Source: Hoeflea marina (lineage in GTDB: Bacteria > Pseudomonadota > Alphaproteobacteria > Rhizobiales > Rhizobiaceae). From it: a DNA stretch of 64,000 nt. The DNA is taken from assembly GCF_003182275.1 (NCBI RefSeq), contig NZ_QGTR01000007.1:124001-188000 (forward strand), in the 5' to 3' direction. Below the pieces are notes generated by a model. The model was given only the letters and a program-made list of their open reading frames with translations. It was not told the DNA's origin and did no database searches. Positions 4,908 to 50,201 of the stretch are shown piece by piece (the stretch's first letter is position 1; each line of letters begins with the position of its first letter). Both the position numbers and the translations under genes were made by a program.

Positions 4908-9626
<4,719 letters not shown>

Positions 9627-11235: not shown

Positions 11236-11462
11236 GAGCCGGCCCTGCGCCGCGCTGACCTGTCCCGACTGCCGCCTCGCTGTTCGCGCTGTCAGGACAC
11301 GCGCCGTCGAAGACTCACATCGTCATCACGCCGGCCTCACGTGCAAGTGACCCCGGATAACGGCGGCTTGATTTCCAGTTGATTGCGCAATTGGCGATGC
11401 TTCAACTGCCGGAGACGGAAGTCGCGGCACGAAAGTTTCAACAGATCATCCAGGAGAACAGC

Positions 11463-11756
11463 ATGTCCAGCAAAACAGCACTCGGCGCATCCGCCCTCGC
11501 AGGCGCCGTCGCCATGGCGCTTTCCGGCGCAACCTTCTTCAACTCGGCGGATCATGCCGTTGCCGCCGACGGCAAGGAAAAATGCTACGGTGTGGCGCTC
11601 GCCGGCAAGAACGATTGCGCCGCCGGCGCCGGCACCACATGCGCAGGCACCTCGAAAGTCGACTATCAGGCCAATGCCTGGTCCTATGTCGACGCAGGCA
11701 CCTGCGGCAAGATGGACTTCGGCAACGGCCACATGGGCACGACGGAAGCCATGTAA
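11463..11756 (+). CDS. bufA: bufferin precursor peptide (DUF2282 type)
   Basis: Small exported RiPP precursor of 97 residues. Residues 1-35 form a signal peptide ending AVAA. The mature part starts [17 protein letters not shown] and carries four cysteines, Cys41, Cys52, Cys60 and Cys81, with the EKCYG and KNDCAAG blocks typical of DUF2282. In the described Caulobacter system, cysteines of this kind of peptide are modified by an MNIO enzyme, and the product sequesters copper in the periplasm. Here the next three genes are the expected MNIO, partner and DoxX genes. A strong AGGAGA lies 6 bases before the ATG. Function in this organism is inferred from family and context. Confidence 0.9.
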
Positions 11757-11803
11757 GCCCAAGGTCGGGGCCTGACGCAAGCAATCGAAACGGGAGTACG
11801 GAC

Positions 11804-12724
11804 ATGACGCGCAAGGACATCCGGATCCAGACCGTCGGTGGCACCCGTTTCCCTGAGGCTCCGCTCCCGCCACGTGCGGGGGCGGGACTGAAGGGCGACC
11901 ATGTCGACCAGATCCTCGCAGACGATTACCGCATCGGCTTTCTCGAGGTCCATGCCGAAAACTACATGGGGGATGGCGGCCCGGCGCACCGGGCGCTCTC
12001 GGCGATCCGGAGGGAGTTTCCGCTCTCCGTCCATGGCGTCGGCCTGTCGATCGGCTCGGAACGAGGGCTCGATCCCGCTCATCTCGATCGCCTGGCGCGG
12101 GTGGTCGAACGCTACGAGCCGGCGCTGGTCTCGGAACATCTCGCCTGGTCGAGCCATGATGCCGGATATCTCAACGACCTGCTGCCGGTGCCCTATGACC
12201 GGTCGACGCTCGACCGGGTGGTCGCGCACATCTCTGAGGTGCAGGGCCGGCTGAAGCGCAGGATCCTGCTTGAAAATCCCTCCACCTATGTCGCCTTCGA
12301 GGGCTCGACCATGGGCGAAACCGAATTCATCGCCGAGGTGGCCCGCCGCTCGGGGTGCGGCCTGCTGCTCGACATCAACAATGTCTATGTTTCCGCCACC
12401 AATCACGGCTGGAAACCGATGAACTATCTGCGCGACTTTCCGCTCGAACTGGTGGAAGAAATCCACCTCGCCGGCCATTCGGAGGATGTCGACGACGAGG
12501 GCGACCGGCTGCTGATCGACGCCCATGACCGACCGGTCTCGAGCGATGTCTGGAGCCTCTACGATGTGGTCATCAGCCAGATCGGGCCTGTGCCGACGCT
12601 GATCGAATGGGACAATGACGTGCCGGACTGGCCGGTTTTGCGGCGCGAGGCGCAAGCCGCCGACGCCATCCTCGCTGCCCGCGGCCCCGCGTCGCTCTTG
12701 GGGTCGCGCCATGCCAGCGCCTGA
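11804..12724 (+). CDS. bufB: MNIO (DUF692) maturation enzyme of the bufferin
   Basis: TIM-barrel multinuclear non-heme iron oxidative enzyme, 306 residues, of the family that includes MbnB of methanobactin synthesis. It is expected to oxidise cysteines of the bufA product in the cytoplasm before export. Conserved metal-site segments are visible: EVHAENYMGDGG near 45, SVHGVGLSIG near 75, LVSEHLAWS near 106, LLENPSTYV near 155, LLLDINNVYVSA near 187 and EIHLAGHSED near 217. It starts 47 bases after bufA with GGGAG upstream and overlaps bufC by 14 bases, suggesting translational coupling. Confidence 0.92.
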   Translation: MTRKDIRIQTVGGTRFPEAPLPPRAGAGLKGDHVDQILADDYRIGFLEVHAENYMGDGGPAHRALSAIRREFPLSVHGVGLSIGSERGLDPAHLDRLARVVERYEPALVSEHLAWSSHDAGYLNDLLPVPYDRSTLDRVVAHISEVQGRLKRRILLENPSTYVAFEGSTMGETEFIAEVARRSGCGLLLDINNVYVSATNHGWKPMNYLRDFPLELVEEIHLAGHSEDVDDEGDRLLIDAHDRPVSSDVWSLYDVVISQIGPVPTLIEWDNDVPDWPVLRREAQAADAILAARGPASLLGSRHASA

Positions 12725-13520
12725 TCGGGCCGCCGCGGCCGGCGGAATGCAGGCCGGCTTCGCCGCGTCGCTGCTGGCGCCGGATCTGCCCGTTCCCGCC
12801 GGTGTCGTGGGCCCGCGCGGAAAGAAGGCCGGGAAGCGCTTCGCAGTCTACCGCAACAATGTCGCCGTCGGGCTCGCCGGCGCGCTCGGCGACATCTTTC
12901 CTGTTGTGCGCAAACTGGTGGGCGACGGCTTCTTCCGGGCCATGGCCCTGGTCTATGTCGCCCAGGAGCCGCCGGGCTCGCCTCTGATGTTTGAATACGG
13001 GCAGGGCTTCGCCGCCTTTCTGGAGGATTTCGAGCCGGTGTCTCAACTGCTCTATCTGCCGGACGTCGCCCGGCTGGAACGGGCCTGGCTCGATGCTTTC
13101 CATGCCGCCGATGTCGAGCCGCTGGATCCGGGCGCGCTGGGCCGGGTCGCGCCGGAAGCGCTGGCCGAGCTGACCTTCACGGTCCATCCAGCAACCCGGA
13201 TCATCGACAGCGATTTCGCCATCGTATCGATTTTCTCGGCCAGTCGCGAAGATCAGGACATCAGCGGCATCAGGCCGCGCCAGGCCCAGTCGGCGCTGGT
13301 GACGCGACCCGGGGACTGGGTCGAGGTCCGCGGCCTGCCGCCGGGCGCCTCCACCCTGTTCAAGGCGCTGATCGCCGGCGTTCGTCTCGGCGAGGCTGCC
13401 GGGGACGCGCTTGCCGCCCATCCGCAGTTCGACCTCCCCGCCGCGCTCGCCGCGATGCTGGAGGCAGGAGTTTTCATCAGATGCGCCGCCCGCGCGCCAG
13501 CAGGGAGCCTTTCGGCATGA
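12711..13520 (+). CDS. bufC: DUF2063 partner protein of the MNIO enzyme
   Basis: 269 residues. The N-terminal DUF2063 domain (about 12-105, with KRFAVYRNNV and FPVVRKLVG) is the usual companion of DUF692 enzymes, related to MbnC, and is thought to recruit the precursor peptide to the maturase. The C-terminal half looks like the peptide-recognition half of this family. The annotation name 'putative DNA-binding' is historical and does not fit the context. It begins inside the end of bufB and its stop codon overlaps the ATG of bufD, so bufB, bufC and bufD are probably translated together. Confidence 0.88.
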   Translation: MPAPDRAAAAGGMQAGFAASLLAPDLPVPAGVVGPRGKKAGKRFAVYRNNVAVGLAGALGDIFPVVRKLVGDGFFRAMALVYVAQEPPGSPLMFEYGQGFAAFLEDFEPVSQLLYLPDVARLERAWLDAFHAADVEPLDPGALGRVAPEALAELTFTVHPATRIIDSDFAIVSIFSASREDQDISGIRPRQAQSALVTRPGDWVEVRGLPPGASTLFKALIAGVRLGEAAGDALAAHPQFDLPAALAAMLEAGVFIRCAARAPAGSLSA

Positions 13521-14113
13521 CCCGTCTCTCGACCTTCATCGTCGCCCTTCACCACCGCTTCTTCACCACGCTTGAACGGCTGCTCGAGGGCTGGTTCATG
13601 GGCCTGCTCTCGCGTTTCGTCTTCGCCGCGGTACTGTGGGGTTATTTCCTCAGCTCCGCCGGCACCAAGGTCGGCGAGGGGTTGTCGGGATTCTTCCAGA
13701 TATCGCCCGGCGCCTACTACCAGATCGCGCTTCCGGCGGTGGAGGCCGCCGGCGGAGACGTCGAAGCCGTGGCCTTCCTGCCCTGGGGCCTGATCGTCAC
13801 GCTCGGAACCTACGCCGAGTTCATCCTGCCGGTGCTGATCATCGCCGGCCTTTTCGCGCGGGTCGCGTCGCTGGGGATGCTCATCTTCATCGGGGTGCAG
13901 ACGCTGGTCGACGTCACCGTCCACATGGTGGGCCCCGAGACGGTGGGCGCGCTGTTCGACCGCTTCCCCGACGGACTGGTGGCCGACCAGCGATTGTTGT
14001 GGGCCGTGCCGCTCGTCTATGTGGCGGTCAAGGGCCCGGGGATGATCTCGCTGGATCATCTGCTCGCCCGCTCGCGGCTGGCGCCGCTCCGCGGCGGCCC
14101 CGTCGCTGCCTGA
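13517..14113 (+). CDS. bufD: DoxX-family membrane protein of the bufferin operon
   Basis: 198 residues with about four hydrophobic segments: near 30-50, 85-105, 110-130 and 160-180. The DoxX-like arrangement ends with a short cytoplasmic tail. DoxX genes often close bufferin operons; the role may be redox or membrane handling of the metal-peptide system but is not settled. It begins with an ATGA overlap with bufC, which fixes the start. Just downstream lies a GC-rich hairpin before the convergent hsp20 gene. Confidence 0.82.
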   Translation: MTRLSTFIVALHHRFFTTLERLLEGWFMGLLSRFVFAAVLWGYFLSSAGTKVGEGLSGFFQISPGAYYQIALPAVEAAGGDVEAVAFLPWGLIVTLGTYAEFILPVLIIAGLFARVASLGMLIFIGVQTLVDVTVHMVGPETVGALFDRFPDGLVADQRLLWAVPLVYVAVKGPGMISLDHLLARSRLAPLRGGPVAA

Positions 14114-17089: not shown

Positions 17090-18202
17090 TCAGCGGAACG
17101 CCTGGAGAATGCTCTGCGCCATGGGAGTGAGTTCGCGCGAGACGGCATCCTGCCCCGGCTTGTAGACGCGGAATGTGCTCTTGCCGGCGGCCTTGGCGGC
17201 ATAGAGGGCGATGTCGGCCATGGTGAAGAGATCGCTGCTGGCGCAATCCGCCGTGAACGCCACGCCGACGGACGCCCCGAGCCCCAGACTATGGCCCTTC
17301 TGCTCTATGGGACGTCCCAGCGCCTCGACGATCTCGCGGGCGACGCCAGCCACGTCCGCGCGATCGTGGCCCGCGCCGATGAGAACGGCAAATTCGTCGC
17401 CGCCGATCCGCGCGACCAGTTCCGCCTTGCTGCAGGCGATTCTCAGCCGTTCGGCGGAGCGGATCAGGCAGGCATCGCCCACCGCGTGGCCGAAGGTATC
17501 GTTGACTGATTTGAAGCCGTCCAGATCGACCAGCATCAGGGCGGCGATCCTGTTGTCCCCGGTCGCTGCCTCATCGAGCTGATCGAGCCTTGATTGGAAC
17601 TGGCTGCGGTTGGCAAGTCCGGTCATGACGTCGAACTCCGCCAGATAGCGGGTCCGGTCGGCCAGGATCTTTTCCTCGGTGATGTCCTGCTTCATGCCGA
17701 AGATGCGGACCGGGACGCCGTCTTCGCATTCGACGGTCGCGGTGATCCGGATCCACCGCCGGTTGCCCAACGCAGTCGTGATCTCGGCGTCCATGCTGAA
17801 GCCGCCGCAATCCTGGATCGCGCGGTCGCGAAGGCGTCGCAGTTGCTCGGCCGATTCCGGGGTGTAACAGCCAAGCGTCCGGGTTCGGTCCAGCGAAGTG
17901 CCGCGGGGGAGGTCGAAAATGTCATAGACCATGTCGGTCCATTCCAGCGTCTCGCAGGGAAGCCGGCACTGCCAGACCCCGATTTTCGCGGCCGCCGACG
18001 CACGGTCGAAGATCTTCCGGCTCTGTTCCAGCGATGCGGCCTGGGACGCGATCACGGCGGCCTGGGCCAGCAGATCCGCCTGCAGCCGTGCGATCTGCCG
18101 CGGTGTCCGGACCTGCATCATCTTCACAGCCAGCGACAGCAGTCTCTCGACCATGCGGCTGCCGGTCACCGTCAGCGGAGATGTGCGTCTGAACTCAGGC
18201 AT
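17090..18202 (-). CDS. diguanylate cyclase with PAS domain
   Basis: Makes cyclic di-GMP from two GTP. The 370 residues comprise an N-terminal helical stretch (about 30-65, possible coiled coil), a PAS fold (about 68-175) ending in MKQDITEEK, and a GGDEF domain (about 185-355). The active motif is intact at 267-271 (GGDEF), with the metal aspartate in LVDLDGFKSVND. The inhibitory I-site RxxD is replaced by SKAE, so product inhibition is unlikely. No membrane segment or EAL domain. An upstream start at 18247 is possible, but the extra 15 codons use codons rare in this genome, so 18202 is preferred. Confidence 0.9.
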   Translation of the reverse strand: MPEFRRTSPLTVTGSRMVERLLSLAVKMMQVRTPRQIARLQADLLAQAAVIASQAASLEQSRKIFDRASAAAKIGVWQCRLPCETLEWTDMVYDIFDLPRGTSLDRTRTLGCYTPESAEQLRRLRDRAIQDCGGFSMDAEITTALGNRRWIRITATVECEDGVPVRIFGMKQDITEEKILADRTRYLAEFDVMTGLANRSQFQSRLDQLDEAATGDNRIAALMLVDLDGFKSVNDTFGHAVGDACLIRSAERLRIACSKAELVARIGGDEFAVLIGAGHDRADVAGVAREIVEALGRPIEQKGHSLGLGASVGVAFTADCASSDLFTMADIALYAAKAAGKSTFRVYKPGQDAVSRELTPMAQSILQAFR

Positions 18203-18393
18203 GAATGATTGAAGCACCTTGTGGCTATGGTCCCTGCAAGGTCGCATAGCGCGATTAACAGAATCTCTAGACCACCCGCCGGAGTCGCCAAAGACGCATC
18301 GTCGGCGGCTTTCTGCCTAGGTTATCCACAGAAACGCCTTTCCGCCCTTTCACGGGCAATTGAAATATCTGCAATAAATTTAAGCAGGGAGGG

Positions 18394-18581: not shown

Positions 18582-19484
18582 CTATTCGGCTGCCAGGCGC
18601 CTGCCGGCGAGATCGTCGCGCACATAGGCCATCAGGCGATCGCAGAATTCAGCCAGATTGATGCGGAGAGCGGTGAAGCCGGAGTTCTTCACAAGGCTGC
18701 TCTCGTCGATGTAGAGGCCTCGGTTGATCTCGATCTGCAGGGCATGGAAGCCGCGCGCGGGACGGCCATAATGCTCGGTGATGAAGCCGCCGGCATAGGG
18801 CTTGTTGCGCGCCACCTGATAGCCCAGTTCGGCAAGGATGCAGACGGCGGCGTGGGAGATGTCGTGGGCGGCGCTTGAGCCGTAGCGGTCACCGACGATG
18901 AAGTCCGGCTTGGGGCCGTTGCTCGACGAGCGGACGCTTGCCGGCATGGAATGGCAATCGACCAGAACCGCGCGTCCGAACTGGACATGGGTCTGCGCCA
19001 GAAGCTTCCGCAGGCAGGCGTGATACGGCAGATAGGCCGTATCGATGCGGGAAAGCGCCTCGGCGACGGGCAGCCTAGCGCGATAGATATCCATGTTCTC
19101 GGCCACAAGGCGCGGAATCGTCCCCAGTCCGCCTGCAACCCGCAGCGAGCCGATATTGGCAAACGGCGGCAACGGACCATCGAACATCCGCGGGTCGAGT
19201 TCATAGGGCTCGCGGTTGACGTCGAGCCAGGCGCGCGGAAAGTTCGCCTGCAGCAACGGCGCTCCGAGCACCGGCGCGACGGAGAACAGCTCATCGACAA
19301 AGAGGTCTTCCGAACGGCGGATGGCGTCGCGGTCGAGCCGCGACGATTCCATGAATGATTCGGAATAGACGCGGCCGGAATGGGGCGAGTTGAAGACGAA
19401 CGGCTCGGTCTGCCGGCGCGGCTGCCGGACTTCGAACAGGGGGGACGACGTCGGGAAAAGCGGCTCGGCGTCGTGTTCCTGCAT
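18582..19484 (-). CDS. N-formylglutamate amidohydrolase family protein (first copy)
   Basis: The family hydrolyses N-formyl-L-glutamate to formate and glutamate, as in histidine degradation (HutG). The protein has 300 residues from ATG 19484. Typical segments are VFNSPHSGRVYSESF near 30, the zinc-site region AVLVDCHSMPAS near 170, DFIVGDRYG near 193 and ALQIEINRGLYIDE near 245. No hut genes are nearby, so the true substrate is open. An ATG at 19523 is an alternative start, but GGAAG eight bases upstream favours 19484. A second family member lies at 44176. Confidence 0.85.
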   Translation of the reverse strand: MQEHDAEPLFPTSSPLFEVRQPRRQTEPFVFNSPHSGRVYSESFMESSRLDRDAIRRSEDLFVDELFSVAPVLGAPLLQANFPRAWLDVNREPYELDPRMFDGPLPPFANIGSLRVAGGLGTIPRLVAENMDIYRARLPVAEALSRIDTAYLPYHACLRKLLAQTHVQFGRAVLVDCHSMPASVRSSSNGPKPDFIVGDRYGSSAAHDISHAAVCILAELGYQVARNKPYAGGFITEHYGRPARGFHALQIEINRGLYIDESSLVKNSGFTALRINLAEFCDRLMAYVRDDLAGRRLAAE

Positions 19485-19665
19485 GTCCTGTCTTCCGCCC
19501 TGTCGCTGCGTTGTCAAATCCATGTTGCCAGTTGCCTGCAAACCTGTCCAGTATGGCGGCTGGGCAGTGATTTCGTCGCTCCGCATTCACTGGATGTTTA
19601 CTGGAGTGAGGCATTTGTGGTGGCATCAAGAAGCCACAACCGCCATGACAGGTCTGGATACTCGA

Positions 19666-20031
19666 ATGATGCCGAAAATTCTCCTTGCAGAAGATGACAA
19701 CGACATGCGCCGGTTCCTGGTCAAGGCTCTCGAGAAGGCCGGCTACGAGGTTCGTTCGTTCGACAACGGCGCCAGTGCCTATGACCGGCTGCGCGAAGAA
19801 CCGTTCACACTGCTGCTGACCGACATCGTCATGCCGGAGATGGACGGCATCGAACTGGCGCGCCGCGCCACGGAACTCGATCCGGACCTGAAAGTCATGT
19901 TCATCACCGGTTTTGCGGCGGTGGCGCTCAATCCCGATTCGAAGGCACCGCGCAACGCCAAGGTGCTTTCGAAGCCGTTTCACCTGCGCGATCTGGTCGA
20001 TGAGGTCAACAAGCTGCTCAACGCGGCCTGA
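19666..20031 (+). CDS. cpdR: single-domain response regulator CpdR
   Basis: Receiver-only protein of 121 residues that in Caulobacter and Sinorhizobium directs ClpXP to degrade cell-cycle proteins when unphosphorylated. The whole chain matches the CpdR type: ILLAEDDNDMRRFL at the start, the phosphoacceptor aspartate in LLTDIVMPEMDG near 52, the threonine in MFITGFAAVAL, and the lysine in VLSKPFHLRDL. Two adjacent ATG codons (19666, 19669) can start it; an upstream ATG at 19645 is less like the family. It is divergent from the amidohydrolase gene. Confidence 0.93.
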   Translation: MMPKILLAEDDNDMRRFLVKALEKAGYEVRSFDNGASAYDRLREEPFTLLLTDIVMPEMDGIELARRATELDPDLKVMFITGFAAVALNPDSKAPRNAKVLSKPFHLRDLVDEVNKLLNAA

Positions 20032-36095: not shown

Positions 36096-36764
36096 CTATC
36101 GCTGCTTCTCATGGGCCACAGCGATCGCTTCGGCCCTCGTCTGCTCCTCGATGAACTCGGCGCGGATCAATCCGCGCAGGGAGTTGCCGACATAGAGCGG
36201 TCGGCCGACGAGATCGGCGGGCAGCAGCACCCGGCTCATGGCCTTGCGCTCGCGGATCATCTCGGCCCGCAGCACGCCGGGCAGCAGACCGCTGGACAGA
36301 GCCGGCGTCAGAAAAGTGCCGTCGCCGCATCCGACGAAGAGGTTGGTGATGGTGCCCTCGCAGAGTTCGCCGCGCTCGTTGAGCATGAGCACCTCGTCGG
36401 CCTCCTCCGGCTTGAACTCGGCGCGTGCCGCTTCGTAGGGTTCCCGGCGCGAGGTCTTGTGGCGGTAGAGCGAATCCTCGGAGTTGAGGCGAGCGGAAGC
36501 GAGGCGGAGCTTCCAGACGGTTCCCTCCGGCAGCGGCGCGAAAGGGCTGGTGGTGATCTCGATCCTGCCGCGGAAGTTCATCGACATCCGCACGCGCAGG
36601 GGCGTGTCGCCGGTCTCCAGCGCGTCGAGCAGGGCAGGGGCGTCGGTCGGCTGGCGAAAGCCCAGCGCATCGGCTGACCGGGACAGGCGCCGCAGATGCT
36701 GGTCGAGGCGGACAAAGCCGGTCTGCGGCTCCCAGCGAAACGTTTCAATCAAGGTGAATTGCAT
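36096..36764 (-). CDS. pabC: aminodeoxychorismate lyase, class IV aminotransferase family
   Basis: Probably converts aminodeoxychorismate to p-aminobenzoate and pyruvate for folate. The 222 residues are short for the family, but the PLP lysine lies in LYRHKTSRREPY near 98, followed by EVLMLNERGELCEGTITNLF near 120 and the end segment VGNSLRGLIRAEF. It starts 20 bases inside the 3' end of pabB in another frame, so the order pabB-pabC reflects translational coupling. It is upstream of the inserted-looking TIR pair. Confidence 0.87.
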   Translation of the reverse strand: MQFTLIETFRWEPQTGFVRLDQHLRRLSRSADALGFRQPTDAPALLDALETGDTPLRVRMSMNFRGRIEITTSPFAPLPEGTVWKLRLASARLNSEDSLYRHKTSRREPYEAARAEFKPEEADEVLMLNERGELCEGTITNLFVGCGDGTFLTPALSSGLLPGVLRAEMIRERKAMSRVLLPADLVGRPLYVGNSLRGLIRAEFIEEQTRAEAIAVAHEKQR

Positions 36765-37908
36765 CGCGTTCCACCGCAAAACGGGCCTTCAGAAGGCATT
36801 CCTCGTATTCGGCCTCGGCACTTGAATCGAAGACGATGCCGCCGCCGACATTGAATACGGCCCGGGCGTCGTTGAAAAGGGTCAGCGTGCGGATCGCCAC
36901 AGAGAAGGCCATCGGACCGGCGGGGTCGATCCAGCCGATGGCGCCGCAATAGGCGTCGCGCGGCCCGGTCTCGAGGTCATGGAGGATCTGCATGGCGCGC
37001 AGCTTCGGCGCTCCGGTGATCGAGCCGCAGGGAAAGAGGGCGGCGAGGATATTCGGAACGGAGACGCCGGGTGACAGCCTGGCGCGGACGTGGCTCACCA
37101 TCTGGTGCACCGTCGGATAGGTCTCGATGTCGAACAGGCGGGGCACGGACACGCTGCCGACCTCGGCGATGCGCGAGATATCGTTGCGCAGCAGATCCAC
37201 GATCATGCGGTTTTCGACCTGGGTCTTCTCGTCACCGCGCATGGCCGCGATGATGGCGATGTCTTCTTCGACCGTGGCGCCGCGGGCGGCCGTGCCCTTC
37301 ATCGGGTGGGTTTCGATGACACCATGGTCATCGACGGAGAAGAACAGTTCCGGCGACCGCGACAGGACAACCGGGCCGCCGAGTTCGATCAGGGCGCCGT
37401 GGCGAACGGGCTGGCGCTCGATGAGCGACCAGAAGGCGGAGCGGGCGTCGCCGTGCCAGGTTGCGGTGATCGGCATCGTCAGATTGGCCTGATAGCAGTC
37501 GCCGCGGCGCAGATGCCCGTGCAGGCGGTCAAAGCGGATCCGGTAGGCTTCGAGATCCCAGGCGGCCCGGACATCGGTCAGGAAAGGGCGGGCGGCAGGC
37601 TCCGCCGGCGGCTGGGCCAGCGGATGTTCGTTTCCGGCCGGAGCGTCGAAGACCCCGAAGCAGGCCAGCGGCGTTTCGCGATGATCCCGGATCAGCGGCC
37701 TGAGCTTGTCCTCGAAGTCGAAGCCCGCCTCGTAGGACAGGTAGCCCGCCAGCCATCGCCCGTCCGCCCGGGCATTCTCCAGGCGCGCCAGAGCAACCGG
37801 AAGCTCGTCCGCGGTGCGTGCCATGATCAGATCCCGCGGCCTGGTGAAAACCATGCAGTGGCCGGAGATGTCGTTGCGAAAGAGGGCTCGGGAACGGTCC
37901 ATTGCCAT
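36745..37908 (-). CDS. pabB: aminodeoxychorismate synthase component I
   Basis: Aminates chorismate to 4-amino-4-deoxychorismate, in partnership with a glutaminase subunit that is not in the window. The 387 residues carry the chorismate-binding domain: GDCYQANLTMPI near 130, HPMKGTAARG near 212, RMIVDLLRNDISRI near 245, LFPCGSITGAPKLRAM near 305 and NVGGGIVFDSSAEAEYEE near 355. Start at 37908 or two codons later. It lies 16 bases after pepF and overlaps pabC, so pepF-pabB-pabC is likely one transcript. Confidence 0.93.
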   Translation of the reverse strand: MAMDRSRALFRNDISGHCMVFTRPRDLIMARTADELPVALARLENARADGRWLAGYLSYEAGFDFEDKLRPLIRDHRETPLACFGVFDAPAGNEHPLAQPPAEPAARPFLTDVRAAWDLEAYRIRFDRLHGHLRRGDCYQANLTMPITATWHGDARSAFWSLIERQPVRHGALIELGGPVVLSRSPELFFSVDDHGVIETHPMKGTAARGATVEEDIAIIAAMRGDEKTQVENRMIVDLLRNDISRIAEVGSVSVPRLFDIETYPTVHQMVSHVRARLSPGVSVPNILAALFPCGSITGAPKLRAMQILHDLETGPRDAYCGAIGWIDPAGPMAFSVAIRTLTLFNDARAVFNVGGGIVFDSSAEAEYEECLLKARFAVERDAIHLD

Positions 37909-47282: not shown

Positions 47283-50201
47283 CTAGCCCTGAGCGGCCGC
47301 GATCAGCCCCAGTTCGCGCAGGCATGCGTCGATCATCGATTCGACGTAGGGCTTGGTCAGGATCTTCGTCCGGCCGAGCATTTCCGAGCCGGGAACTTCG
47401 GTGTGACCGGTGGCAAAGATGACGGGCAGGTCGGGAAGGGTCTCGCGCAGCCGGAGCGCGAGCTCGAGGCCGGAGAAGTCAGGCAGGCCGACATCGGTGA
47501 CGAGAACATCGATCGGATTGGCCAGGATGGCCTGAAGCGCTTCTGCGCCCGAGCCTGCCTCCACCACGGTCATTCCCATGTCCGCCAGCATGTCGGAGGT
47601 GCTCATCCGAATGAGAATGTCGTCTTCACACAGGAGCACCACCAGGCCCGCGGCGGTTGCGGGAACCGCGGCCGTTCCCGGCTGCGGACTGGCGGCAATG
47701 GCGGCCTCGGCGGCCGCTGTGTCGGCGGCGGCCTTTTCGAGCACCTGCCGCACTTTGCGGGCCATTGCATCGCTGGTGTAGGGCTTGCTCAGCAGATGGA
47801 CGCCGGAATCGAGCCGACCTTCGTGGACGATGGAATTCTCCGTGTACCCGGAGGTGAACAGGATCGCCATGCCGGGCCGCTGGCGGGCGGCCTCCCGGGC
47901 AAGCTCGGTGCTCTTCATCGAGCCTGGCATGACCACGTCGGTGAAGAGCAGGTCGATCGGCACACCGGTTTCGATGACATCGAGGGCCTTGCGGGCATTT
48001 TCGGCGGTCAGCACCCTGTATCCGAGGTCGGTCAGCAGCGCCACCGCGGTCTGCCGCACGGCGTCGTCGTCTTCGGCGACCAGCACGGTCTCGCCCCTGC
48101 CACGCGGCGTGCCATGCTGCGCCGCCTCGACGCGGTCCTCCTCGCGCAGGGCGCGCGGCAGGTAGATCTTGATCGATGTGCCCAGTCCCGGCTCGCTGTA
48201 GATCTTGATGTGGCCGCCGGACTGCTTGACGAAGCCATACACCATGGAGAGGCCGAGCCCGGTGCCCTTGCCTTCGGTCTTGGTGGTGAAGAATGGTTCG
48301 AACACCTTGGCGATGATGTCGCTGCTCATGCCCGTCCCGGTGTCGCTCACCGCGATCATCACGTACTGGCCGGGCACGACTTCATCGTGCAGGCGGGAAT
48401 AATCGTCATCGAGAAACGCATTGCCGGCCTCGATCGTCAGCTTGCCGCGCCCGTCCATCGCGTCCCGGGCGTTGATGGCGAGGTTGAGGAGCGCATTCTC
48501 GACATTGCCGGGATCGGCAAGCGTGTTCCACAGTCCGCCACCGATGACGGTCTCGATCTCCACCGCCTCGCCGAGGCTGCGACGCATGATTTCGTCCATG
48601 TCGCGGATGAGCCGGCCGACATTGATGACCTTCGGCGCCAGCGGCTGGCGCCGGCTGAAGGCGAGCAGTTGCTGCGCCAGCCGGGCGCCGCGGGTGACAC
48701 CCCCCAGAGCGTTGCCGATCCGGGCCTGTATCTCTTCGTTGCCGGCGACGTCGCGGGCAAGCATCTGCAGATTGCCGCTGATGACCTGCAGTAGATTGTT
48801 GAAATCATGGGCAATGCCGCCGGCGAGCGTTCCGATTGCCTCCATCTTCTGGGATTGCCGCAACACGTCCTGGGTCCGGACCAGTTCGCGCGTCCGCTCA
48901 TCGACGCGCGCTTCCAAGACTTCGTTGAGGTCTGCGAGCCAGGCCTCTGTCTGCTTTTGATCCTCGATGTCGGTGTTCGATCCCACCCATCGGATGACCT
49001 CGCCCGCATCATCGCGCACGGGCACGGCGCGGGCGATGTGCCAGCGGTACTGGCCGTCATGACGGCGAAGGCGGAACTCGGTCTGGTACTCGTCACCGGC
49101 GGCGACCGCCGCCTGCCAGGCCTTGCCGACATCGCCGACATCGTCCTCATGGACCATCCGGGCCCAGCCGGTGCCGGCGAGTTCGGCCTCGCCAAGGCCG
49201 CTGTATTCGTAAACCCGCGCGTTGAACCAGTCCAGGCTGCCGTCGGCGAGCGCGGTCCATGCATGGTTGGGCATGGACTGCGCCAGCGAGCGGAAACGGC
49301 TTTCGCTTTCGCGCGCGGCCTCTTCGGCACGCTTCTGGTCGGTGACGTCGTAACCCTGCACCAGGATGCCGGTGACATTGGCGGAGGAGTCGGCCAGCGG
49401 CTGGAAAATGAAATCCACGTAGCGCTCCTCGGCCTGTGCGGCCGACTTGCGCTTGAACGACACCTTGGCGCCGCTGTCGCGGTAGGATTCGCCAGAGCGG
49501 TAGACCTGGTCGAGGAGTTCGATGAATCCCTGGCCGCTGATCTCGGGCAGGGCATCGCGAACACTGGAGCCGAGAACGTCGCGCTGGCCGATCAACTGCC
49601 GGAAAGCGGCGTTCGTCACCGAGAAGACGTGTTCGGGACCGGTCAGGACGGCCATGAAGCTGGGCGCGCGCTCGAACAGGTCGCGCAGGTGACCGCTCTC
49701 CTTGCCGAGCGCGGCATTCTCGATCACCACCGCATCGGCGCGGCGCAGGACGTCGGACTGGATGTGCAGCGACGACCCGGCGGAGTTCTGCCTGAGAAGA
49801 TGCAGCTCGGTCACGTCGACGGTGTGCTGGAGGACGAATTCGACGCGGCCCTCAGGGCCGAAGAGCGGCGTGTGGGTGGCGCTCCAGAACCGATCCTCCA
49901 TGGTGCCGTCTGGCCGGGCGATGGGATAGGGGATCAGGGGCAGATTGTCGGGGGCACCGGTTTCCAGCACGCGCGCCAGCGAGTTGCGCAGCAATCGGCC
50001 TGCGTCCGAAACGGGGTCGCTCGGGAAGGCGTCGAACATGTTGCGCCCGATGACCTCATCATGGTTGCGCATGGTGACGGCTTCATAGGCCGAATTCAGA
50101 CCGACAATGACGAGATCCCGGTCAAGGATGACATAGGGATTTGGCGCCGCGTTGAAGACCTGGAGAATGTCGACACCGCTCAACATTGCCTTGCGTAACA
50201 T
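47283..50201 (-). CDS. hybrid sensor histidine kinase with PAS domains and two receivers
   Basis: 972 residues, soluble. Three PAS domains (about 12-132, 170-288, 300-416); a coiled stretch; HisKA (about 450-520) with phosphoacceptor His465 in GGIAHDFNNLLQ; ATPase domain (about 560-685) with NALLNLAINARDAM and GKGTGLGLSMVYG; then two receiver domains, with Asp755 (LLFTDVVMPGS) and Asp903 (LVTDVGLPDFSG). The two receivers suggest a phosphorelay or branching output. No response regulator gene is adjacent, so the partner is elsewhere. A start five codons later (50186) is equally possible. Confidence 0.93.
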   Translation of the reverse strand: MLRKAMLSGVDILQVFNAAPNPYVILDRDLVIVGLNSAYEAVTMRNHDEVIGRNMFDAFPSDPVSDAGRLLRNSLARVLETGAPDNLPLIPYPIARPDGTMEDRFWSATHTPLFGPEGRVEFVLQHTVDVTELHLLRQNSAGSSLHIQSDVLRRADAVVIENAALGKESGHLRDLFERAPSFMAVLTGPEHVFSVTNAAFRQLIGQRDVLGSSVRDALPEISGQGFIELLDQVYRSGESYRDSGAKVSFKRKSAAQAEERYVDFIFQPLADSSANVTGILVQGYDVTDQKRAEEAARESESRFRSLAQSMPNHAWTALADGSLDWFNARVYEYSGLGEAELAGTGWARMVHEDDVGDVGKAWQAAVAAGDEYQTEFRLRRHDGQYRWHIARAVPVRDDAGEVIRWVGSNTDIEDQKQTEAWLADLNEVLEARVDERTRELVRTQDVLRQSQKMEAIGTLAGGIAHDFNNLLQVISGNLQMLARDVAGNEEIQARIGNALGGVTRGARLAQQLLAFSRRQPLAPKVINVGRLIRDMDEIMRRSLGEAVEIETVIGGGLWNTLADPGNVENALLNLAINARDAMDGRGKLTIEAGNAFLDDDYSRLHDEVVPGQYVMIAVSDTGTGMSSDIIAKVFEPFFTTKTEGKGTGLGLSMVYGFVKQSGGHIKIYSEPGLGTSIKIYLPRALREEDRVEAAQHGTPRGRGETVLVAEDDDAVRQTAVALLTDLGYRVLTAENARKALDVIETGVPIDLLFTDVVMPGSMKSTELAREAARQRPGMAILFTSGYTENSIVHEGRLDSGVHLLSKPYTSDAMARKVRQVLEKAAADTAAAEAAIAASPQPGTAAVPATAAGLVVLLCEDDILIRMSTSDMLADMGMTVVEAGSGAEALQAILANPIDVLVTDVGLPDFSGLELALRLRETLPDLPVIFATGHTEVPGSEMLGRTKILTKPYVESMIDACLRELGLIAAAQG

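Follow-up and report, generated by a model that had tools for sequence, protein, structure and literature searches.

Bufferins are described as copper-sequestering peptides which hold copper in the periplasm, and their family has been gathered in thousands (PMC12452194). In Buf1 the central cysteines are modified and the first and last cysteine form a disulphide (PMC12452194). The bufferin-1 operon of Caulobacter, CCNA_03363-03366, encodes a DUF2282 precursor, a DUF692/MNIO enzyme, a third protein and a DoxX protein in this order (PMC8224329). It belongs to the SigF/NrsF regulon and its expression rises with copper (PMC8224329, PMC3511200). A stretch of 64,000 nucleotides (nt) from Hoeflea marina (contig NZ_QGTR01000007.1), called the window below and used for all H. 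marina coordinates, likewise carries such a gene set in the same order at positions 11463-14113. This operon is an ordinary copy of the already known four-gene set. The less expected part is a conserved element upstream of it: Caulobacter has SigF and NrsF, whereas NrsF was not found in the genome of H. marina, and a different conserved sequence precedes the genes.

Relatives have been described from other bacteria as well. In Sinorhizobium meliloti, a member of the same family, the operon SMb20527-SMb20530 likewise combines DUF692 and DUF2063 genes and is controlled by the extracytoplasmic function (ECF) pair RpoE7/EcfR7, an ECF16 pair of the SigF-NrsF kind, with a GTAAC...CGAA promoter (PMC6180224). 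H. marina has no NrsF match and the core of its upstream element is different. The account of the S. meliloti operon in PMC6180224 notes no induction by peroxide, cadmium or chromate. Hoeflea alexandrii (locus L033) has an operon with an approximately 80% identical BufB, the same upstream element and the same cysteine spacing, but its precursor ends in RMGSLEPLDRDLPA while the tail of the H. marina precursor differs and is six residues shorter after the fourth cysteine. A wider relationship exists with the captophorins (fontiphorin, oxazolin, gonophorin, bulbicupramide), a class in which PMC13097082 places the bufferins. They likewise have an MNIO, a PME1/DUF2063 partner and a cysteine-containing precursor, and 5-thiooxazole is given as the shared product of PME1-dependent MNIOs (PMC13097082). 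Captophorins are also linked to copper, and for H. marina this 5-thiooxazole and copper chemistry would apply by analogy. Captophorin precursors contain repeated Lys-Cys or Cys-Lys motifs, in contrast to the four-cysteine DUF2282 type of H. marina.

Composition of the bufferin operon

All four genes are on the forward strand. bufA (11463-11756) encodes a bufferin-1 (Buf1/DUF2282) precursor of 97 amino acids, bufB (11804-12724) the MNIO (DUF692) bufferin maturase of 306 amino acids, bufC (12711-13520) the DUF2063 partner protein of the MNIO with 269 amino acids, and bufD (13517-14113) a DoxX-like membrane protein of 198 amino acids. The preliminary description of the window had proposed a complete bufferin operon with overlapping genes. 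The overlap exists for bufB and bufC (14 nt) and for bufC and bufD (4 nt, ATGA), whereas bufA and bufB are separated by a gap of 47 nt. Against Pfam, BufA matched DUF2282 with 82.6 bits (cut-off 22.4), BufB matched MbnB_TglH_ChrH with 347.2 bits (cut-off 25) and BufC matched DUF2063 with 87.3 bits (cut-off 27.2). BufB also exceeded the cut-off of the NCBIfam equivalog MNIO_BufB (380.7 bits, cut-off 310). In the NCBIfam profile search BufA gave no match, and BufC and BufD gave matches below the cut-off only. The genome of H. marina (5.26 Mb in 20 contigs, 96.6% complete) contains one MNIO gene and one DUF2282 gene. When 151 genomes of the Rhizobiaceae were sampled, 80 had DUF2282.

For comparison 98 loci with flanking sequence were used, which include near duplicates such as L055 and L118. 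In an alignment of the 98 BufB proteins, 21 His, Asp and Glu residues were each kept in 97 or 98 rows, among them E48, H50, E52, E111, H112, H118, E157, D190, E219, H221, D239, H241 and E268. By sequence the closest solved structure of BufB was PDB 3bww (E value 9.4e-40); TglH and MbnB were more distant. No solved structure was found for BufC by sequence up to an E value of 1, but a search with its predicted fold did give matches. The AlphaFold2 model (51 sequences) had a mean pLDDT of 94.3, and Foldseek returned three PDB matches with E < 0.001: chain A of two TglHI entries and NGO1945 (3dee). In 8hci the DUF692 protein is chain D, which makes chain A of TglHI TglI by elimination. NGO1945 is a partner of an MNIO with DUF2063 and RRE domains (PMC12452194). 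The scores by query length on the template modelling (TM) scale were 0.59, 0.56 and 0.51 with root-mean-square deviations of 5.4-7.3, the comparison being made over the whole model. Thus BufC is a DUF2063 partner protein with a predicted fold like that of known MNIO partners.

BufA is, as the preliminary description stated, a peptide of 97 residues with cysteines at positions 41, 52, 60 and 81. Its N-terminus is Sec-like when read by eye, with a lysine, a stretch of hydrophobic residues and an AVAA site. A sequence search against solved structures yielded nothing up to an E value of 1. The cysteine spacing is 10-7-20. From 128 of 131 loci examined, 139 distinct precursor readings were extracted, that of the window included. 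The spacing was 10-7-20 in 119 of them, 10-6-20 in 18 and different in two; the latter (one each from L045 and L082) arose by chance in another reading frame. In all 137 genuine precursors the spacer between the third and fourth cysteine is 20 residues long. The first cysteine is followed by Tyr in 106 readings, by Phe in 31 and by Leu and Val in one each, counts which are conditional on an extraction pattern that demanded a hydrophobic or aromatic residue and a Gly after the first cysteine and spacers of bounded length. Tyr42 and the 20-residue spacer, which had been put forward as distinctive, are therefore both real but represent the norm among the extracted precursors, and we reject them as peculiarities of this peptide.

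The identity of the operon is supported by the gene order, by the fold predicted for BufC and by the Pfam families, of which three exceed the cut-off and DoxX falls slightly short of it. Two observations weigh against a regular bufferin-1 operon. BufD reached only 22.3 bits against Pfam DoxX, with a cut-off of 23.6. It stands in the place of the DoxX gene and has a blastp relative in 76 of the 98 loci; DoxX is considered a core member of the gene set, though it does not occur in every cluster (PMC12452194). The other point is the tail of BufA (11709-11756), which has 16 residues after the fourth cysteine instead of 22 in the seven nearest relatives (L033-L037, L113, L114). Their precursors end in RMGSLExLxRDxPA, and bufA aligns well with them outside the tail region. 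Tails of the GHxG kind are present in other loci, and this part is variable across the family. Overall, a standard bufferin-1 operon that buffers copper is very probable, with modification, export and copper binding taken from the studied members.

Some loci showed modifications of this organisation. In 13 of them (L004, L007, L063, L066, L085, L091, L095, L099, L101, L104, L110, L111 and L112) bufA is present in tandem, with the codons of the first cysteines 275-468 nt apart. Ten of these loci pair a 10-6-20 copy with a following 10-7-20 copy; in L091 both copies are 10-6-20, in L063 and L066 both are 10-7-20. Such loci could possibly be two-peptide bufferin systems. In two Rhizobium loci the bufB match is separated from bufC by approximately 1 kb (L073, about 6882-7899; L076, about 6840-7880), which is room for an extra gene. 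Inserted genes (adjamnio-VI) have been reported in buf1 operons (PMC12452194).

The conserved element upstream of bufA

In an alignment of the upstream regions of 12 loci from the Hoeflea group, a block TTGATTTCCA was unchanged while the surrounding DNA aligned poorly. With at most one mismatch this 10-mer was present in 50 of 141 upstream regions; after a single shuffling round the figure was 2 of 141. When columns were counted in 38 non-redundant sequences, the block could be extended to a core TTGATTTCC-NN-KTKA-N14-A-NNN-T. The A at +29 was kept in all 38 sequences and the T at +12 and the A at +14 in 36 each; none of these columns had been used in selecting the sequences. In the window the core occupies positions 11368-11401 of the forward strand and starts 95 nt before the start codon of bufA. 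A simple scan for sigma-70 promoters found none between 11200 and 14200 (expected 0.2).

Further upstream on the same strand (11337-11361) are half-sites restricted to a subgroup of loci: a TCAC-N6-GTGA dyad (11337-11350) and ATAAC (11357-11361). The dyad and a TMAC block precede the core in many of the 38 sequences. We considered the dyad as the core of the element but rejected it, since it is missing in all seven matches outside the family that lie before DUF2282 genes. Five Rhizobium-type loci (L044, L045, L047, L048 and L049) have kept TTGATTT but share another upstream sequence, TTCTTACA ... TACAAxAA, perhaps a rewired promoter.

The exact core, with no deviation, was then sought in whole genomes. 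It occurred once in the genome of H. marina and 23 times in the 151 Rhizobiaceae genomes, one match in each of 23 genomes. With equal base frequencies chance alone would produce about 5 matches, and a reversed pattern gave none. Twenty of the 23 matches lie 196-229 nt before the codon for the first cysteine of a DUF2282 gene. A scan of 397 genomes of the order yielded 19 further matches, all outside the family, and three with the reversed control; seven of the 19 are situated 198-230 nt before the first cysteine codon of a DUF2282 gene. This second scan is only partly independent, since loci of the Stappiaceae and other non-family loci were already in the first set.

Bufferin operons with the element or with NrsF

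The preliminary description expected copper induction. Such a response cannot be transferred directly from Caulobacter, given that NrsF, one half of the switch there, was not found in the H. marina genome, where the Caulobacter genome used as a control did give a match, and that a different conserved element lies upstream. On this ground control by SigF/NrsF was rejected. The genome also encodes CueR, at another location.

The distribution of the two features points in the same direction. When one deviation from the core was allowed and NrsF was sought in open reading frames (ORFs) of at least 100 amino acids within 7 kb (some loci being shorter), 42 of the 98 loci had the element, 24 had an NrsF gene and none had both. 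Shuffling of the upstream regions (200 rounds) gave a mean of 0.005 loci with the element and a maximum of one. At the genome level, the exact core was present in 20 of the 80 genomes with DUF2282; NrsF exceeded the cut-off in none of these 20, compared with 33 of the 60 others (Fisher 3e-6, uncorrected for relatedness as all our Fisher tests). One core-bearing genome, G099, had a single weak NrsF match of 20.4 bits, below the cut-off. Since NrsF exceeds the cut-off in no core-bearing genome but in 33 of the 60 others, control of the operon is probably not exerted by SigF/NrsF. That transcription begins at a promoter containing the element and depends on a regulator other than SigF/NrsF is a reading to which we give moderate confidence. 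The element probably acts through an unlinked regulator. This may be an alternative sigma factor or an activator that works on an ordinary promoter, and the spacing fits either.

Several observations weigh against the element as a dedicated bufferin promoter. Three of the 23 matches in the family (G005, G016, G057) are not located before DUF2282, and these genomes have no DUF2282 match. In G057 (locus L139) the element lies at 1501-1534 on the reverse strand. It is followed on this strand, after 53 nt, by an ORF for a protein with a molybdopterin-binding domain, while the opposite strand carries a flavodoxin-like gene; the match is either chance or a second target. The element of G016 lies opposite an ORF of 128 amino acids without a family, that of G005 opposite a DUF2800 ORF. 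Outside the family 12 of the 19 matches are not before a DUF2282 gene. The element is also not general to the bufferin family, as 32 of the 98 loci have neither element nor nearby NrsF. Finally, its state requires 7 changes on the BufB tree in comparison with a shuffled mean of 32, so that element-bearing loci cluster. The element has thus been passed on in blocks and was gained or lost several times, and its spread partly reflects shared descent.

This clustering would also suit a neutral sequence which was inherited together with a conserved locus (glutamate synthase - PLP lyase - buf - Hsp20), and element-bearing loci do have common neighbours, Hsp20 being present in 40 of 42 as compared with 49 of 98 overall. 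However, the columns beside the core mostly contain less than 0.7 bit, yet the unselected A at +29 never varies, and seven of the 19 matches outside the family are also situated 198-230 nt before the first cysteine codon of a DUF2282 gene. We therefore regard neutral inheritance as unlikely. If the element is functional, it may be bound by an activator and overlap the -35 region of an ordinary promoter. The column counts reveal a repeat TTGA/KTKA with a spacing of 11 nt and, in some lineages, the upstream dyad, and the A at +29 would suit position 2 of a -10 hexamer, the T at +33 its position 6. Sites of LysR-type and response regulators overlap the -35 region with such spaced repeats or dyads. 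The dyad, on the other hand, is exact in only 7 of the 20 matches before DUF2282 inside the family and in none of the seven outside it, and annotation by eye of the 25 neighbour clusters listed did not reveal any DNA-binding regulator adjacent to the operon. An activator site is a serious candidate, held tentatively and at somewhat less than an even chance.

Alternatively the core could represent the -35 and -10 boxes of an ECF sigma factor encoded elsewhere, a SigF-like wiring with another sigma/anti-sigma pair. The distance from TTTCC to a block G[CG][CG]A is 17 nt, near the SigF pattern GTAACC-N16-CGAA (PMC3511200), and RpoE7 of S. meliloti drives its DUF692/DUF2063 operon from a comparable GTAAC...CGAA promoter (PMC6180224). 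The failure of the sigma-70 scan to find a promoter would agree with this. But the core differs from the GTAACC-CGAA of the SigF group, and the conservation of KTKA inside the spacer together with further half-sites upstream in many loci would be unusual for a bare sigma promoter. We consider an ECF promoter possible, though rather doubtful.

Control through such an element was not met in the literature searched, which did not include a paper on the Legionella GIG operon that deals with promoters (PMC5413113). A full-text search for TTGATTTCCA returned no bufferin paper among the matches listed, and one on bufferin transcription factor, promoter and copper response, whose word start also catches 'buffering', nothing relevant among those listed. 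The words promoter and LysR are absent from the main text of PMC12452194.

By analogy only, the regulator may sense copper. Whether the operon could serve another metal or stress (gold, mercury, chromate or cadmium) is a related question. Chromium and cadmium are further signals to which the SigF regulon of Caulobacter responds (PMC3511200), a related cluster of Cupriavidus responds not only to copper but to gold and silver as well (PMC8224329), and MerC-bufferin fusions have been taken as a hint of other metals (PMC12452194). Bufferins are, however, described as copper-sequestering, and no sign of another metal was noticed in the sequence, though no dedicated search was made. A role for another metal or stress rather than copper appears very unlikely.

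Surrounding genes and significance of the operon

The loci with the element are usually flanked by genes for glutamate synthase, a pyridoxal-phosphate (PLP) lyase, Hsp20, an alpha/beta hydrolase and a member of the inositol-phosphatase family (36-40 of 42 loci each). The sole regulator-like protein in the 25 listed neighbour clusters is a stand-alone response-regulator receiver domain found approximately 6.6 kb downstream in 19 of the 98 loci. In the window it is encoded by an ORF within 19390-20031 on the forward strand, with nearly identical letters in L033. We take it to be a CpdR-like protein; Pfam revealed no DNA-binding domain in it and nothing ties the receiver to buf. Another regulator-like gene further out encodes a GGDEF protein (17093-18247). 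Elsewhere in the window, on the reverse strand, are genes for a chorismate-binding enzyme (36748-37908) and for a large hybrid sensor kinase (47286-50201), which combines several PAS domains with two stretches of the response-regulator receiver type.

From the gene set, the family identity, the conserved cysteine pattern, the conserved His, Asp and Glu residues of BufB and the fold predicted for BufC, all present at this locus, a mode of action can be proposed on the model of the studied bufferins. BufA would be made with a Sec-type signal, and in the cytoplasm BufB and BufC would oxidise the two central cysteines, Cys52 and Cys60, to 5-thiooxazoles. The peptide would then be exported, a disulphide would form between Cys41 and Cys81, and the mature peptide would hold excess copper in the periplasm, with BufD as an accessory membrane protein. 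Transcription would start at the promoter containing the element at 11368-11401, under a regulator other than SigF/NrsF.

The operon itself is one more member of the large bufferin family. The significance of the element may be wider. In the sampled genomes of the Rhizobiaceae it is a marker of bufferin genes and has few matches elsewhere. We see about an even chance that a large part of the alphaproteobacteria around the Rhizobiaceae uses a second bufferin-1 switch, independent of SigF/NrsF and based on a bufferin-specific element, whose regulator would perhaps serve a single operon. The element is a ready DNA bait for finding this regulator and, with it, the metal or stress behind the response.

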